Below, one piece after another: positions 1,159-6,958 of a stretch of DNA of 64,000 nucleotides (the first letter of the stretch is position 1; every line of letters starts with the position of its first letter). This DNA is from Bizionia saleffrena. GTDB lineage: Bacteria > Bacteroidota > Bacteroidia > Flavobacteriales > Flavobacteriaceae. The notes beneath the pieces were generated by a model, which was not told the origin of the DNA, did not search any database, and worked only from the letters and a program-made list of their open reading frames with translations. The stretch spans positions 1-64,000 of the forward strand of contig NZ_VSKM01000001.1 of NCBI RefSeq assembly GCF_008086175.1, given 5' to 3'. Both the position numbers and the translations under genes were made by a program.

Positions 1159-1536
1159 CTTTATACTCGACGTAACGTTTTATGGATCATTCCTAAATAC
1201 TGTGTTTAGCCTCCTCTATGTGTTGAACTTTGTGTTAAATTAAAGCGCAAAATTCTATACAGATTTAAAAAGTATTAAATTGATCCCCGCGAGCGCAGTC
1301 TAGAGATGACTTATAAGAATGAAACAGTAAATAATTACTAATTCTACTAATTGATAGTTTTAGTTTATGCTCGGGACTAACGAAGATTTAAATCGGTGGT
1401 AAAGACAATAATTAAATATTCTATTTTGACTGTTTAAAATGCAGACCAAGTCAACATCTACAAACAATTTTTAAAAATGATCTAATACTTCTCCCCTATT
1501 TAGTTTTTAAAATTAAAAAATAGCGCTTATTTAATT
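1159..1536. other. Gene-free spacer with a degenerate short interspersed repeat
   Basis: No gene is seen. CGCAGTCTAGAG at 1294-1305 matches 11 of 12 bases, in opposite orientation, with CCTCTCGACTGCG near 52072-52084. The rest is AT-rich without obvious structure. Confidence 0.45.
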
Positions 1537-1561
1537 TTGTTTAACTATTTTTGCTAAACAA
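1537..1561 (+). promoter_or_regulatory. crt operon promoter with overlapping operator palindrome
   Basis: TATTTTTG at 1546-1553 matches the TAnnTTTG -7 box. It sits inside a perfect inverted repeat, TTGTTTA (1537-1543) and TAAACAA (1555-1561), separated by 11 nt; the right arm ends in the A of the start codon. Transcription should begin at about 1558-1561, so the message would be leaderless or nearly so. A dyad placed over the -7 box suggests a repressor site, most simply for the MerR/CarH-like product encoded directly downstream. Confidence 0.55.
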
Positions 1562-2475
1562 TGAACAATATTAAGACTCAATTTAGCATAAAAGATTTAG
1601 AAAATCTATCAGGCATTAAAGCGCATACCATTAGAATATGGGAAAAAAGATACGCCTTATTTGAGCCAAAGCGTACTGAAACAAATATCAGATATTACGA
1701 CCTAAAAAGTCTTCAAAAGGTTCTAAATATCTCATATTTAAACAGAAACGGCTATAAAGTATCTAAAATAGCAGATTTAAACACCGCAGAAATTTCCAAT
1801 CTCGTAAAAGAAATAGCTTTAAAAAAAGATCGTAATCGTTACAGTGTAGATAAATTTAAAATGTCTATGTTAAATTTCGACCACCATTTATTTGCGTCTA
1901 CCTATAACGAGTTAATCAAAGAGCATAATTTAGACTTTATCTTTTTGGAGGTCTTTACCCCCTTGCTTAGCGACATTGGTTTCCTTTGGCAAACCGATTC
2001 TATAACACCTGCGCACGAACATTTTATCGTAGAATTAATCAAACAGAAAATTCTTTTAAACACAGATAAAAGAATAAATCATTCGCTGGCTAAAGAAAGT
2101 AAAACTACATACGTTTTATTTTTACCAGAAAACGAAGTTCACGAATTAGGTTTGCTTTTTATCAATTATAAACTCGCTGAAAAAGGCTGCCACAGCGTCT
2201 ATTTAGGTCAAAGTGTTCCCATTGCAAGTTTAGAGCATCTTTTAACACACTTTAATAATATTACATTTATTTCATCATTTACCGTTAGTCCGGATAAATT
2301 TAAAATTAATGATTACCTTAAAAACTTTTACCAATCCCTTTTAAACAATACAAACAATAAGCTAATAGCTTTCGGGTTTCTTACCCAATATGTGGAAATT
2401 GATACATTAAACGATCAAATATCATTGCACAACTCTACAAAAGACGTTGTTAACGTATTAACGCCACAAGTGTAA
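1561..2475 (+). CDS. CarH/LitR-like MerR-family regulator with B12-binding domain
   Basis: Predicted transcriptional regulator of the carotenoid genes that follow it. Residues 6-75 form a MerR winged helix (HTIRIWEKRY at 22-31). Residues ~100-170 resemble the four-helix cobalamin cap, with the W-x9-EH signature complete (W143, E153, H154). Residues ~180-300 resemble a B12-binding Rossmann domain: E192-V-H194-E-L-G197 matches ExHxxG, and S239 lies at the x41 spacing known for cobalamin proteins; the later GG is replaced by GF (272-273). In CarH these parts bind adenosylcobalamin and make DNA binding light-sensitive. Here B12 or light response is inference from motifs. It is the first gene of the operon, 13 bp before crtI. 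Confidence 0.88.
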   Translation: MNNIKTQFSIKDLENLSGIKAHTIRIWEKRYALFEPKRTETNIRYYDLKSLQKVLNISYLNRNGYKVSKIADLNTAEISNLVKEIALKKDRNRYSVDKFKMSMLNFDHHLFASTYNELIKEHNLDFIFLEVFTPLLSDIGFLWQTDSITPAHEHFIVELIKQKILLNTDKRINHSLAKESKTTYVLFLPENEVHELGLLFINYKLAEKGCHSVYLGQSVPIASLEHLLTHFNNITFISSFTVSPDKFKINDYLKNFYQSLLNNTNNKLIAFGFLTQYVEIDTLNDQISLHNSTKDVVNVLTPQV

Positions 2476-2488
2476 ACATTTACTAATT

Positions 2489-3955
2489 ATGACTAAAAAA
2501 ATTTCTATAATAGGTTCTGGTTTTGCTGCCTTATCTGCGGCTTGCTATCTTGCAAAAAGCGGACATAATGTTACCATTTTTGAAAAAAACGAAACTATTG
2601 GAGGGCGGGCTAGACAATTTAAAAGAGAGGGTTTTACTTTCGATATTGGACCCAGTTGGTATTGGATGCCAGATGTTTTCGAGCGCTTTTTCGCCGATTT
2701 TAACACAACCCCAGAAGCCTATTATTCACTAGAAAAGTTAAACCCAGCTTACAGTGTTTACTTTGGCAAGGACGATTTTATTACGATAGAAGACACCTTA
2801 GAGAAAATATACAAAGCTTTTGAAGCTGAAGAGCCTGGCAGCTCAAAAAAGTTAGTAAAGTTTATTGCGAATGCACAAGACAACTATAATGTTGCTATTA
2901 AAGATTTGGTATATAGACCTGGATTGTCTCCTTTAGAATTGGTAACACCAGTAACTATCAAAAAAATCAATCAATTTTTTGGCACAATAAAAAAGGATGT
3001 AAGAAAAGAGTTTAAAAACAATCGTTTAGCGATGATTTTAGAATTTCCTGTTCTATTTTTGGGTGCCAAACCTGGCAATACCCCTTCGTTTTATAGTTTT
3101 ATGAATTATGCCGACTTCGGAATTGGCACCTTTCATCCTAAAAAGGGAATGTATCAAGTTATTTTAGCTATGGAATCCTTAGCAAAATCCTTAGGTGTAA
3201 TTATAGAAACCGAAAAACCTATCGATAAAATTATAGTTAGTAACGGTAAAACTGAAGCTATTGTTTCAAAAGGAATGACATACCCATCAGATATTGTTTT
3301 GAGTGGCGCTGATTATCATCATACGGAAACACTATTAGAACCACAGTATCGTCAATACTCAGAGTCGTATTGGGAAGGTAAAACATTTGCGCCCTCCTCA
3401 TTGCTATTTTATATTGGTTTTGATAAAAAAATTAAAAATGTAAATCACCATACTCTATTTTTTGATGTTGATTTCGAAGCGCATGCAAAAGATATTTACG
3501 ATGAACCTAAATGGCCAGACAACCCTTTATTTTATGCGAATTTCCCCAGTATTACCGATGATAGCGCCGCACCTGCAGGCAAAGAAGCGGGGTTCTTTTT
3601 AATACCATTAGCACCGGGTCTGGAAGACACTGAAGCCTTAAGAGCTACTTATTTTGATAAAATAATGACAAGATTTGAAAATTTAACCTCGCAAGATGTA
3701 AGAAAATCAATTATCTTTAAAGAGTCCTTTTGTGTTAATGATTTTATAAAAGATTACAATTCTTACAAAGGAAACGCTTATGGAATGGCAAATACGTTAT
3801 TGCAAACTGCTTTTTTAAGACCAAATCTAAAAAGTAAAAAACTAAGTAATCTTTATTTTACAGGACAATTAACCGTGCCTGGACCGGGAGTACCTCCGGC
3901 ACTTATTTCGGGAAAATTGGTAGCAGATTTAATTAACAAACACCATAAAAATTAA
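2489..3955 (+). CDS. crtI: Phytoene desaturase
   Basis: FAD-dependent desaturase that converts phytoene stepwise to lycopene at the inner membrane. The N-terminus has the dinucleotide-binding motif GSGFAA (9-14) with the ribose-binding acidic residue E32, then the GGRA segment typical of CrtI. The C-terminus carries the family signature GQLTVPGPGVPPALISGK. At 488 aa it has normal length. Its stop overlaps the start of crtB by one base (TAATG), so translation is probably coupled. A close relative, CrtO or 3,4-desaturase type, is less likely given crtB and crtY next door. Confidence 0.95.
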   Translation: MTKKISIIGSGFAALSAACYLAKSGHNVTIFEKNETIGGRARQFKREGFTFDIGPSWYWMPDVFERFFADFNTTPEAYYSLEKLNPAYSVYFGKDDFITIEDTLEKIYKAFEAEEPGSSKKLVKFIANAQDNYNVAIKDLVYRPGLSPLELVTPVTIKKINQFFGTIKKDVRKEFKNNRLAMILEFPVLFLGAKPGNTPSFYSFMNYADFGIGTFHPKKGMYQVILAMESLAKSLGVIIETEKPIDKIIVSNGKTEAIVSKGMTYPSDIVLSGADYHHTETLLEPQYRQYSESYWEGKTFAPSSLLFYIGFDKKIKNVNHHTLFFDVDFEAHAKDIYDEPKWPDNPLFYANFPSITDDSAAPAGKEAGFFLIPLAPGLEDTEALRATYFDKIMTRFENLTSQDVRKSIIFKESFCVNDFIKDYNSYKGNAYGMANTLLQTAFLRPNLKSKKLSNLYFTGQLTVPGPGVPPALISGKLVADLINKHHKN

Positions 3956-4794
3956 TGAAAACTTTATTTGATTCGGTTTCCTATAATTGTAGTAAAATAG
4001 TTACGCAATCTTACAGCACTTCGTTTTCTATGGCCACAAAAATGCTATCGCACACGATACGTCAGGATATTTACAATATTTATGGTTTTGTACGTTTCGC
4101 AGACGAAATTGTAGATTCTTTTCATGATTACGATAAAAAAGAGCTATTTACGAATTTTGAAAAAGAACTCGAATACGCTTTAACTCATAAAATAAGTTTA
4201 AATCCTATTCTCAATGCTTTTCAGCATACGTATCATAAATATAATATTGAAAAGCATATGGTAAATTCCTTTATGGAAAGTATGCGGTTAGACTTATATA
4301 AATCAGAATACTTAACCGTAAACGAATTTAAGAACTATATTTACGGCTCGGCTGATGTTGTGGGTCTAATGTGTCTTAAAGTATTTGTAAAAGGGGATGA
4401 CGATAAATATAACGCCTTAAAAAGTGGCGCTATGTCTTTGGGCTCTGCGTTTCAGAAAGTAAACTTTTTAAGAGATTTAAAAGCCGATTTCCATGATTTA
4501 GAACGCTCATATTTTCCAAATACAGATTTAAATAATCTAGATGAAGAAGCCAAACAAATTATTATTAAAGACATTGAAAAAGACTTCGAATTAGGCCTAG
4601 CCGGAATTAAGTTATTACCGATTGAAGCCAAATTTGGTGTTTTTATGGCCTATAGATATTATAATCAATTGCTTAAAAAATTAAAGAAGACACCTGCTTT
4701 AGAGATTAAAAACACACGAATTCGTGTACCCAACTATAAAAAATTTGAGCTTCTTACCCGAAGCTATGTAAAATATCAACTTAAATTATTGTAA
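3955..4794 (+). CDS. crtB: Phytoene synthase
   Basis: Condenses two geranylgeranyl diphosphates to phytoene, the first committed carotenoid step. The squalene/phytoene synthase fold is supported by YSTSFSMATKM (20-30), the first Asp-rich motif DEIVD (50-54) and the second, FLRDLKAD (171-178). At 279 aa it has normal length. It overlaps crtI and crtZ by one base on each side (TAATG both times), a tight operon arrangement. No GGPP synthase (crtE) lies in the window, so the substrate must come from elsewhere. Confidence 0.96.
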   Translation: MKTLFDSVSYNCSKIVTQSYSTSFSMATKMLSHTIRQDIYNIYGFVRFADEIVDSFHDYDKKELFTNFEKELEYALTHKISLNPILNAFQHTYHKYNIEKHMVNSFMESMRLDLYKSEYLTVNEFKNYIYGSADVVGLMCLKVFVKGDDDKYNALKSGAMSLGSAFQKVNFLRDLKADFHDLERSYFPNTDLNNLDEEAKQIIIKDIEKDFELGLAGIKLLPIEAKFGVFMAYRYYNQLLKKLKKTPALEIKNTRIRVPNYKKFELLTRSYVKYQLKLL

Positions 4795-5243
4795 TGCAAA
4801 CACTATATTGGATACTTATATTTTTAGGAACTTTTGGTATAATGGAGTTTAATGCGTGGTTTACGCATAAATATATTATGCACGGTTTTTTATGGAATTT
4901 ACACAGAGACCACCATAGAAAAGACCACGGCAGCTGGTTCGAGCGCAACGACGTTTTCTTTATCTTTTATGCCGTAGTAAGTATGACCTGCTTTTATTTA
5001 TGGAGTTATGAAGGTGTATGGTATGGCTTACCTGTAGGCTTAGGCATTATGTCTTACGGCGCTGCTTATTTTTTAGTTCATGACATCTTTATTCATCAAC
5101 GGTTTAAAATTTTTAGAAACGCTAACAACTGGTACGCTAAAGGCGTACGACGTGCTCATAAAATGCATCACAAACATATTGGAAAAGAAGAGGGCGAATG
5201 CTTCGGAATGCTTATCGTACCCTTCAAGTACTTTAAACGCTAA
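4794..5243 (+). CDS. crtZ: Beta-carotene 3-hydroxylase
   Basis: Membrane di-iron hydroxylase that turns beta-carotene into zeaxanthin by way of cryptoxanthin. It has the histidine clusters of the fatty-acid-hydroxylase superfamily: H25/H30, H37/H40/H41/H45, H96/H101 and H122/H125/H126/H128, set between hydrophobic segments at about 1-20, 54-72 and 78-95. At 149 aa it is typical of bacterial CrtZ. Position between crtB and crtY agrees with the assignment. No ketolase (crtW) is present, so zeaxanthin is the likely end product of this operon. Confidence 0.94.
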   Translation: MQTLYWILIFLGTFGIMEFNAWFTHKYIMHGFLWNLHRDHHRKDHGSWFERNDVFFIFYAVVSMTCFYLWSYEGVWYGLPVGLGIMSYGAAYFLVHDIFIHQRFKIFRNANNWYAKGVRRAHKMHHKHIGKEEGECFGMLIVPFKYFKR

Positions 5244-5257
5244 TTATAGTTCATATT

Positions 5258-6400
5258 ATGGTTACTAACCACTTCGATTATATTATTGTCGGCAATGGTT
5301 TAGCCGGTTTCCAACTTGCTTTAGCACTTTCTAACGATCCGTATTTTAAAAACAAACAGATCGCCATAATCGATAAAAATCCTAAAACAACGAACGACAA
5401 AACGTGGTGTTATTGGGAAAAAGGTGTTGGTAAATGGGACCATCTAATTACCAAATCATGGAAAACTGCTCATTTTTTTTCCTCTAATAAAGCCTTAAAA
5501 TTACACTTAGAACCATACACCTATAAAATGCTAGAGTCCATTCATTTTTATAATGATGCACGACGCGTTCTCTCTAAAAACGAAAATATTCACAGTATTT
5601 TGGAAGCAGTGATTTCTGTTGAAGAGCAGTCTAAAATTACAGTAATAACTTCTGAAGCTAATTACACCGCAACACACGTTTTCGATAGTAGAATTACAAC
5701 AGATTTTAAAGCGCAGAAAGACAGCTATATATCCATTGCTCAGCATTTTAAAGGGTGGACGATAGAAACAGAAACGGCTGTTTTCGATACCAAAGCGTTT
5801 ACGATGATGGATTATAGAATAAAACATAACAACCAAACAACCTTTACCTATGTTCTGCCCATTACACCAAAGAAAGCACTAATAGAGTTTACCTATTTCA
5901 CTCCAGAACTTGTTGCCGATAATGTCTACGATATTTTTTTAAAAAGATACATTTCTGAAATTTTAAATATTAATAACTATACAGTCACCGAAGTTGAAAA
6001 AGGCATTATACCTATGACGAATTTCCCATTTAAGTCCTACTCTACCTCAAACGTTACGAAAATTGGTACCGCTGGCGGATGGGTAAAAGGGTCGACAGGA
6101 TATTCCTTTAAGCACACAGAGAAGAAAGTACACCAGATTATTGAAAATCTAAAAGCAAACCGTTTACCTTCGGCACACTTGTTTCAGGAAAAATATGGTT
6201 TTTACGACAAAGTTTTTCTAAAAGTACTTCAAGATAACAACGAAATGGGTGAATGGATTTTCGAACAATTCTACGCTAAAAATCCCGTGCAAACAATGTT
6301 TCAGTTTTTAGATGAAGAATCGTCTTTTAAAGAGGAGTTTAAAGTTATGAAATCATTGTTTTCAATCGCTTTCATTAAAGCCTTTTTTAAAACACTATAA
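5258..6400 (+). CDS. crtY: Lycopene beta-cyclase
   Basis: Cyclises both ends of lycopene to give beta-carotene, the substrate of crtZ. The N-terminus carries the FAD/NAD-binding motif DYIIVGNGLAGFQLALAL (~6-23), and the W-C-Y-W-E segment near 48-52 and length (380 aa) fit the CrtY family. It is the last gene of the operon, 14 bp after crtZ. Its last six bases overlap the end of the convergent thioredoxin gene, and no hairpin terminator lies between them. Confidence 0.9.
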   Translation: MVTNHFDYIIVGNGLAGFQLALALSNDPYFKNKQIAIIDKNPKTTNDKTWCYWEKGVGKWDHLITKSWKTAHFFSSNKALKLHLEPYTYKMLESIHFYNDARRVLSKNENIHSILEAVISVEEQSKITVITSEANYTATHVFDSRITTDFKAQKDSYISIAQHFKGWTIETETAVFDTKAFTMMDYRIKHNNQTTFTYVLPITPKKALIEFTYFTPELVADNVYDIFLKRYISEILNINNYTVTEVEKGIIPMTNFPFKSYSTSNVTKIGTAGGWVKGSTGYSFKHTEKKVHQIIENLKANRLPSAHLFQEKYGFYDKVFLKVLQDNNEMGEWIFEQFYAKNPVQTMFQFLDEESSFKEEFKVMKSLFSIAFIKAFFKTL

Positions 6401-6958
6401 CACTAATAATTCGTCTATTTTTGCGCGGACTTTATCGCTATTCCAATTCGCGGCGCCAGTCTCATCAATAATAATATTACCTTGCCTATCTATTAAAAAT
6501 GTACGTGGAATACTACGACCGCTAAATGTTTCAGGACTTTTGCTAATCGCGGAATACACAGGAAATGTAAACGCATTATTATTTAAAAACTTAGAGATTA
6601 TGTCCTTGTTTTCATTGGAGACTAAGACAAAATCTATTTTATCTCTGTAATCGTCATGTAATTCTTGAATTGAAGGCATTTCGGCAATACAAGGAGGGCA
6701 CCACGTTGCCCACAAATTCACTAAAACTACTTTGTTTTTTGTTGTCTTAAAATCGAAGGTTTCTCCATCTAAGCGTTGCAAATCCCAGTTATAACTACTT
6801 ATTTGTTCAGTATCTTCAGTCGCCATAATACTCGGTCCAAATAACGTTTTCCCTTTATTTAAAACAATCTGTATCTGTTTACGCGATTGCGGAACGATAA
6901 GCGCTACAATAATAACTAGGTAAATAATATTTTTAATCGAAAATGTGCTTTTTTTCAT
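6395..6958 (-). CDS. TlpA-like thiol:disulfide oxidoreductase, membrane-anchored
   Basis: Thioredoxin-fold protein facing the periplasm, probably keeping exported thiols (for example cytochrome c cysteines) reduced. One N-terminal membrane segment spans ~8-24; the redox motif WCPPC is at 86-90 (C87, C90), and the cis-proline loop is in SIPRTFLI near the C-terminus. Length (187 aa) is normal for TlpA/ResA proteins. It stands alone and converges with crtY. The substrate cannot be told from sequence. Confidence 0.88.
   Translation of the reverse strand: MKKSTFSIKNIIYLVIIVALIVPQSRKQIQIVLNKGKTLFGPSIMATEDTEQISSYNWDLQRLDGETFDFKTTKNKVVLVNLWATWCPPCIAEMPSIQELHDDYRDKIDFVLVSNENKDIISKFLNNNAFTFPVYSAISKSPETFSGRSIPRTFLIDRQGNIIIDETGAANWNSDKVRAKIDELLVL

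Follow-up and report, generated by a model that had tools for sequence, protein, structure and literature searches.

A CarH-like MerR/cobalamin-domain regulator at the head of a flavobacterial carotenoid operon and its predicted palindromic operator

Overview

The carotenoid genes in the window (the whole 64,000-nt stretch of Bizionia saleffrena DNA analysed here) are headed by a gene for a CarH-like MerR/cobalamin-domain protein, whose promoter and coding start carry a conserved interrupted palindrome (Table 1). This protein is likely to be an adenosylcobalamin (AdoCbl)-dependent repressor, active in the dark, of a light-response regulon to which proteorhodopsin may belong. Its family and fold, the conserved cap, the operon, the conserved dyad with its neighbours, and the co-occurrence of dyad and regulator are computed directly. 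The regulator is a flavobacterial CarH-like variant and not a plain CarH member, because it lacks the GG of the CarH definition and scores below the CarH equivalog cut-off, though its proposed mode is CarH-like. The original prediction, that a CarH-like regulator heads the crt operon, is well supported by fold, cap, lower-ligand His, synteny and the conserved dyad; its core observation was right, but it overlooked both the absence of the upper His (Q144) and the broader dyad set.

Table 1. Features of the window (positions without prefix) and dyads in the same genome (contig:position)
Feature	Position	Strand	Basis or neighbouring genes
Predicted -7 promoter box TAATTTTG, consensus TAnnTTTG	1532..1539	+	Sequence; orthologue spacing; published -7 consensus
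Predicted operator, interrupted palindrome TGTTTA-N18-TGAACA	1538..1567	.	Spacer 18 in 93/113 close-orthologue promoter regions; codon-2 AAC bias
CarH-like MerR/cobalamin-domain transcription regulator, 304 aa	1561..2475	+	Pfam; PDB sequence and fold matches to Thermus CarH; motif census
Doubtful regulator/crtI junction dyad TGTTAA-N19-TAAACA, weak and degenerate	2448..2478	.	Sequence
crtI, phytoene desaturase	2489..3955	+	NCBIfam NF058655, 722 bits, over cut-off 640
crtB, phytoene synthase	3955..4794	+	Family matches below equivalog cut-offs; operon position
crtZ-type beta-carotene hydroxylase	4794..5243	+	Pfam FA_hydroxylase E 7.6e-11; no NCBIfam match; operon position
crtY-type lycopene cyclase	5258..6400	+	Pfam Lycopene_cycl E 1e-48
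Own-genome dyad	C1:54619		Before TetR_C_23, ABC1 kinase and flavin reductase genes
Own-genome dyad	C1:59363		Before a short uncharacterised protein; then SDR, glutathione peroxidase, TspO
Own-genome dyad	C11:126372		Fasciclin protein; right arm imperfect
Own-genome dyad	C58:124839		76-aa ORF
Own-genome dyads	C58:127131 and C58:133258		Flank a block with photolyase-family genes

The regulator protein

The MerR helix-turn-helix proposed originally is recovered as a Pfam MerR_1 match (E 1.3e-13), and the cap matches B12-binding_2 (E 2.3e-7). Two results count against the CarH-like reading: the Rossmann cobalamin model PF02310 is absent from the Pfam matches at E <= 1, and the CarH equivalog NCBIfam NF052513 scores 59 bits, below its curated cut-off of 400. 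Sequence search of the PDB leads to Thermus CarH/LitR (E 3e-10; E 1e-22 in a profile search), and the protein is the sole relative of its kind in its own genome (genome search, E <= 0.001). The recognition helix has the form RxWExRY, with the actual sequence RIWEKRY; the published CarH helix is RxWERRY (PMC9304148, in part).

CarH proteins have been defined by Wx9EH, ExHx2G, x41 followed by SxV/T, and x22-27 followed by GG (PMC8156234, in part). The first two motifs are found where originally placed, as W143-x9-E153-H154, which is conserved beyond chance among relatives, and as E192-x-H194-x2-G197; S239-x-T241 provides the third. As originally noted, GF replaces GG: a single G272, followed by F273, lies at x30 after T241, outside the published range. 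In the structural model G272 immediately follows strand 267-271, suggesting that this single Gly may sit where GG normally lies. Profile alignment sets W131-H132 and E141-H142 of Thermus CarH, in the residue numbering of the available parts of PMC11796333 and PMC10442372, opposite W143-Q144 and E153-H154. The upper-ligand His that follows the cap Trp in the Thermus bis-His light state is thus missing, with Q144 in its place. The light-responsive cobalamin-binding-domain (CBD) signature of SignatureFinder, GxxW, EH, GxxH and GxxxP (PMC11796333, in part), is represented by GxxW (G140, W143), EH (E153-H154) and GxxxP (G216, P220); GxxH is changed to NxxH (N191), a position that is G in 5 of 29 orthologues.

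An AlphaFold model from a 64-row alignment (mean pLDDT 91.1, pTM 0.84) has the MerR domain, helix bundle and Rossmann domain that make up the CarH fold. Foldseek against the PDB returns full-length Thermus CarH as the best match (E 3.9e-13), with CtMerR and the cobalamin domains of CarH (H132A among them) next in rank; VIA-align with the CarH cobalamin domains gives Z 16.9 and 2.6-2.7 A over 195-196 residues. The Rossmann part, which class II LitR proteins lack, is both modelled and matched in this regulator.

Conservation of the regulator and cobalamin supply

A regulator match is present in 42 of 60 relatives, the own genome included, and in 244 of the family's 299 genomes (220 of the 248 good ones), where the counts take in divergent as well as a few weak matches; Winogradskyella, Algibacter, Flavobacterium, Polaribacter, Zobellia and Kordia are represented. 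A MerR-family gene is named as the first gene of a Nonlabens cluster (PMC11855829, in part). Experimental study of this regulator in Bacteroidetes was not found among the matches listed from the open-licence literature, and may still exist.

Assignment to the close (group A) or the divergent (group B) set followed similarity score and not phylogeny. Among 29 relatives picked by whole-protein similarity, W143, E153 and E192 are invariant (29/29 each) and H154 and H194 occur in 28 each; Q144 is kept in 27, with His once at that position, and G272 in 27. In group B, the cap and ligand residues W, E, H and H are present in 26/26 (26 of 30 fetched). His follows the cap Trp in 1/29 of the similarity-picked set, 2/80 of the pattern-picked loci and 0/26 of the divergent relatives. 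The 80 named loci, among the matches listed, were drawn by peptide patterns including EHF and ExH, so that their H154/H194 counts are biased, and the 29- and 30-relative sets were drawn otherwise. By the same census, the original placing of S239 at the cobalamin spacing was right as to the S239-x-T241 element and over-read as to the residue: Ser occurs in just 2 of the 29 orthologues (Tyr in 21), and S239 as a cobalamin contact is rejected on this poor conservation.

The divergent set (L117-L143) comprises 26 MerR-B12 regulators in which the cap Trp is followed by Gly, Leu, Thr, Ser or Met. Four of these have crtI downstream within the 1.5-kb flank, and in many the dyad is one base wider and the -7 box is shifted. 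L118 was left out because its start could not be extracted; L116 is a truncated sequence, and for several divergent relatives the start position is uncertain.

A PF01923 adenosyltransferase is encoded in the own genome, which is among the 54 of 60 relatives that have one; PF02572 gave no match there. The genome also has methylmalonyl-CoA mutase, a MeaB/B12-binding protein and one cobalamin riboswitch, and from these genes together AdoCbl is probably available in the cell. Counting against a B12-dependent reading, genome G010 has a close orthologue and no PF01923 match.

These data bear on the possibility of a CarA-like regulator that represses crt through the dyad independently of B12 and light, with another signal or an antirepressor relieving repression. 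The altered GG and GxxH and the lost upper His would suit such a protein, and Myxococcus xanthus CarA acts independently of B12 (PMC8156234, in part). However, CarA is described as lacking the Trp of Wx9EH (PMC9304148, in part), whereas W, E and H are here nearly invariant even in divergent relatives, and the adenosyltransferase is present; a CarA-like regulator is therefore unlikely.

The predicted operator and the crt operon

The regulator gene lies directly before crtI-crtB-crtZ-crtY, all on the same strand, as originally described, and across loci crtI starts within 200 nt downstream of the regulator in 100 of 110. A tRNA-Lys gene (anticodon TTT) lies upstream of the regulator (1050-1123), and a ResA/TlpA-like thioredoxin-family gene (6395-6958, minus strand) is convergent with crtY. 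In one relative, G049, an ECF sigma factor gene stands between regulator and crtI (locus L210, 2926-3432); 29 nt separate its start from a perfect dyad upstream. In G282, an open frame of 794 aa that resembled a regulator-crtI fusion was rejected as such: the regulator ORF ends at 301 aa and crtI lies 19 nt downstream.

The palindrome at the regulator's own promoter, TGTTTAAC-N14-GTTAAACA, spans 30 bp, with half-sites TGTnnA and TnnACA 24 bp apart. It overlaps the -7 box, the predicted start site, the start codon and codons 1-3. This operator, predicted from sequence, is new to the present analysis; the conserved dyad overlaps the DNA at 1537-1561 that had been suggested earlier for binding. 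By the -7 consensus and its -12 to -5 numbering (PMC9723704, in part), transcription of the regulator would start at about 1544; a second TAnnTTTG, at 1546-1553, fits the consensus likewise.

TTTGT[TC][TCG]A occurs within 60 nt of the start in 96 of 110 regulator promoters (the window, 29 relatives and 80 named loci), and in 81 of the 96 orthologues having the element the first T of TTTG lies 25 nt before the start codon. The five bases after TAnnTTTG are TTTAA at 54/72 regulator sites versus 8/274 sites of other genes. Codon-2 Asn is AAC in 86/89 regulators, compared with 33/92 codon-2 Asn of other genes (Fisher 6e-20) and 826/2,452 Asn elsewhere in the regulator (Fisher 1e-35), indicating that the DNA of the coding start is constrained; these P values, like the others given here, are overstated because related genomes are not independent.

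Taken together, these elements make up TGTnnA-N18-TnnACA. In group-A promoter regions it prevails at spacer 18 (Table 1), with 5 regions at 19, 15 at 26 and no more than 7 at any other spacer; in group B the spacer is 19 in 13 of 26 and 18 in 5, the loci being partly shared. Other periods that stand above the rest in the 113 close-orthologue regions are 21 forward (16 regions) and 8 reverse (16 regions). CarH-type 11-bp direct repeats are not enriched, no 11-bp period occurring in more than 6 of 139 promoter regions (non-degenerate repeats counted). The flavobacterial half-site contains TnnACA, which is the published CarH half-site (PMC9304148, in part).

A second dyad lies between regulator and crtI in 47/50 loci with a 40-60-nt gap and 3/4 with a longer one, that is, in 50/54 loci with a gap of at least 40 nt, compared with 56/14,575 random 140-nt windows. 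At shorter gaps it is found in 2/12 loci (20-40 nt) and 1/34 (below 20 nt). Although 35 of 1,204 control upstreams carried the dyad, the dyads mapped in long loci cluster at the regulator-crtI junction, so that they are recognised as a second site and not as failure of the control. The consensus of the 48 crtI sites with spacer 18 is TGTTTAAC...TATATTTGTTAAACA, with a -7 box between the arms. In the window the gap is 13 nt and the junction match is weak, suggesting that the crt genes here probably depend on the regulator promoter.

The regulator might instead be an activator, like many MerR proteins, turned on either by light or when AdoCbl is lost. The space between dyad arms, where the -7 box of the crtI sites lies, is where MerR activators can act, and the regulator promoter has no evident -33 element. 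Against activation, the own-promoter dyad lies over and downstream of the -7 box, a repressor position, and the CarH/LitR proteins described in the available parts of PMC9758184 and PMC8156234 repress; we regard an activator as very unlikely.

Dyads elsewhere and a candidate regulon

Of 30 genomes with a group-A regulator, 28 have the perfect dyad TGTTTAA-N16-TTAAACA (92 sites versus 4 in a backward-read control), as do 3 of 11 with a group-B regulator alone and 2 of 19 that lack the regulator; the last two genomes are no more than 82% complete. Presence thus differs between genomes with and without the regulator (31/41 versus 2/19; Fisher 2.7e-6, the genomes not being independent); G059, whose sole match is 67 aa, was counted as regulator-negative. 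Outside the window's own family, the figures are 5/6 group-A genomes versus 0/11 without the regulator. Across ten genomes, spacer 16 accounts for 54 of 75 matches among spacers 8-24.

In the own genome, the looser TGTTTA-N18-TNAACA has 9 forward and 7 reverse matches versus 1 and 3 in the control. The interval between the dyads at C58:127131 and C58:133258 holds two genes of DoxX type, DPRP, two photolyase-family genes (FAD_binding_7), DUF2805 and DUF2452; an amine oxidase gene lies outside it. The targets of these two dyads are less certain because the nearest called starts are about 230-380 nt away. A further match (C33:234852) falls inside an ORF. A partial folE-like match downstream of a dyad (L190, 9262-9711) may represent a degraded or divergent gene. 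The sequence TANNTTTGTTTAA was rejected as a regulon probe in favour of the dyad pattern, its 25 matches (11 in a backward control) lying mostly not before genes.

The order TetR_C_23, photolyase, uncharacterised protein and folE, with two dyads, recurs in other genomes (e.g., L197, L216 and L239). Within 260 nt downstream of 47 of 68 perfect sites (22 genomes) lies one of 27 labelled genes, the other 21 sites being unlabelled: TetR_C_23 in 14 genomes, the uncharacterised protein in 10, fasciclin in 9, folE in 2 and photolyase in 1, a tally that is partly circular because the labels came largely from dyad sites. Other perfect dyads precede genes for a GHMP-kinase protein and a desaturase-family protein. 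In 10 of the 22 genomes, the gene that follows a perfect dyad encodes a conserved protein of about 140 aa (L190, 8427-8861; L194; L197; L216); the one copy searched gave no Pfam match, and the protein is a candidate for a new light-response protein.

The dyad could instead belong to another regulator, for example a TetR_C_23-family protein, the MerR gene being just one target. TetR-type proteins bind palindromes, and the 14 of 22 genomes with fetched regions in which TetR_C_23 genes stand behind a perfect dyad would be explained. Yet perfect dyads are rare where the MerR gene is absent, the spacer moves from 18 to 19 in the divergent MerR set, and the half-site contains the CarH TnnACA, all of which make ownership by another regulator improbable in our judgement.

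Rhodopsin genes

Among 159 genomes of the family, 32 have a match to rhodopsin PF01036, and the genome of the window does not. One perfect dyad, in G036, separates a rhodopsin gene from a gene for beta-carotene dioxygenase. A dyad-independent sample was formed by fetching 30 of the 32 matches, 29 of them with upstream sequence, and scored with a matrix trained on the crtI-site arms alone, at a threshold that 1% of 1,110 upstream regions of other genes pass. The threshold was exceeded by 20 of the 29 rhodopsin upstreams (shuffled, 1.2%; Mann-Whitney 2e-14, the genomes not being independent), comprising 18/22 from genomes with the regulator and 2/7 from genomes without a confirmed one. The latter two, both at most 81% complete, count against linking regulator and dyad. 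The looser dyad gave 14/22 and 3/7, respectively, and 184/9,000 in shuffled windows. Proteorhodopsin expression has been called constitutive in Dokdonia PRO95 (PMC3587595), which speaks against light control of that gene there.

In related bacteria of marine and fresh waters, the predicted dyad also lies close to genes for DNA repair and light harvesting, which suggests a possible general light switch. In its widest form, which we put forward tentatively and as a serious possibility, a CarH-like AdoCbl photoreceptor without the bis-His mechanism would be a family-wide master light switch of Flavobacteriaceae, controlling carotenoids, photolyases/cryptochromes, pterin synthesis, isoprenoid supply and proteorhodopsin/retinal genes through one 30-bp palindrome, and tying marine phototrophy to B12.

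Proposed mode of action

The anatomy of the regulator fits an autoregulated dark repressor, for which we infer AdoCbl binding, a response to light, repression and binding of the regulator to the dyad. The protein would join a winged helix to an AdoCbl domain made of a four-helix bundle and a Rossmann part. In the dark, the AdoCbl-loaded oligomer would sit on the interrupted palindrome at the -7 box and start site of the regulator gene, and so silence both the regulator itself and crtI-crtB-crtZ-crtY; photolyase-family, redox and fasciclin genes would come under its control through the dyads found elsewhere in the genome. In light, breakage of the Co-C bond would rearrange the oligomer and release the DNA, turning the genes on. 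Light and B12 control of crt is supported indirectly, by the conserved cap, the adenosyltransferase gene and the photolyase-family genes near dyads.

The light state cannot be the Thermus bis-His form because Gln replaces the upper His ligand; it would probably be like the water- or hydroxo-type states reported for CtMerR and the H132A variant. H132A Thermus CarH is reported to stay mostly tetrameric after light, an earlier report having found dissociation (PMC10442372, in part), so that loss of the upper His could blunt the response. On the other hand, CtMerR (Arg) monomerises and SasPcob (Gln) photolyses (PMC11796333, in part), and Gln at this position is therefore compatible with a light response.

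The candidate regulator, 30-bp operator and gene list form a directly testable set. If the proposal is true, flavobacterial light responses would depend on B12 supply, and the natural loss of the upper His across a large group offers many proteins for asking what bis-His ligation is needed for.

Comparison with known systems

Like Thermus thermophilus CarH (PDB 5c8d/5c8e/5c8f), the regulator combines a MerR winged helix, a four-helix bundle and a Rossmann domain with a Wx9EH cap, an ExHx2G lower ligand, a carotenoid target and a TnnACA half-site. Unlike Thermus CarH, it has Gln for the upper-ligand His132 and lacks GG, and identity in structural alignments is 16-19%; the predicted regulon is wider here. 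The arms of the flavobacterial dyad are inverted, in contrast to the 11-bp direct repeats used by Thermus CarH (PMC8156234, in part), and this counts against the CarH-like reading.

The class II LitR proteins of Pseudomonas (PplR/PmlR) are likewise repressors, and their regulon of phrB, cryB, folE, a short-chain dehydrogenase (SDR) and an FAD oxidoreductase resembles the one predicted here (PMC9758184, in part). However, they keep the helix bundle alone and work with a LOV partner, and their sites, spaced TGTACA (same source), differ in spacing. Myxococcus xanthus CarA is also a MerR-B12 repressor of a carotenoid promoter, but lacks the cap Trp and acts without B12.

With CtMerR of Chloracidobacterium (PDB 8jbs) and the photocobilin SasPcob, the regulator shares a CarH-type cobalamin domain lacking the upper-ligand His, and both are photoresponsive despite this lack (PMC11796333, in part). 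CtMerR differs in having Arg at that position and a divergent DNA-binding domain. SasPcob has Gln there, as the regulator does, but consists of cobalamin and biliverdin domains and has no MerR domain.
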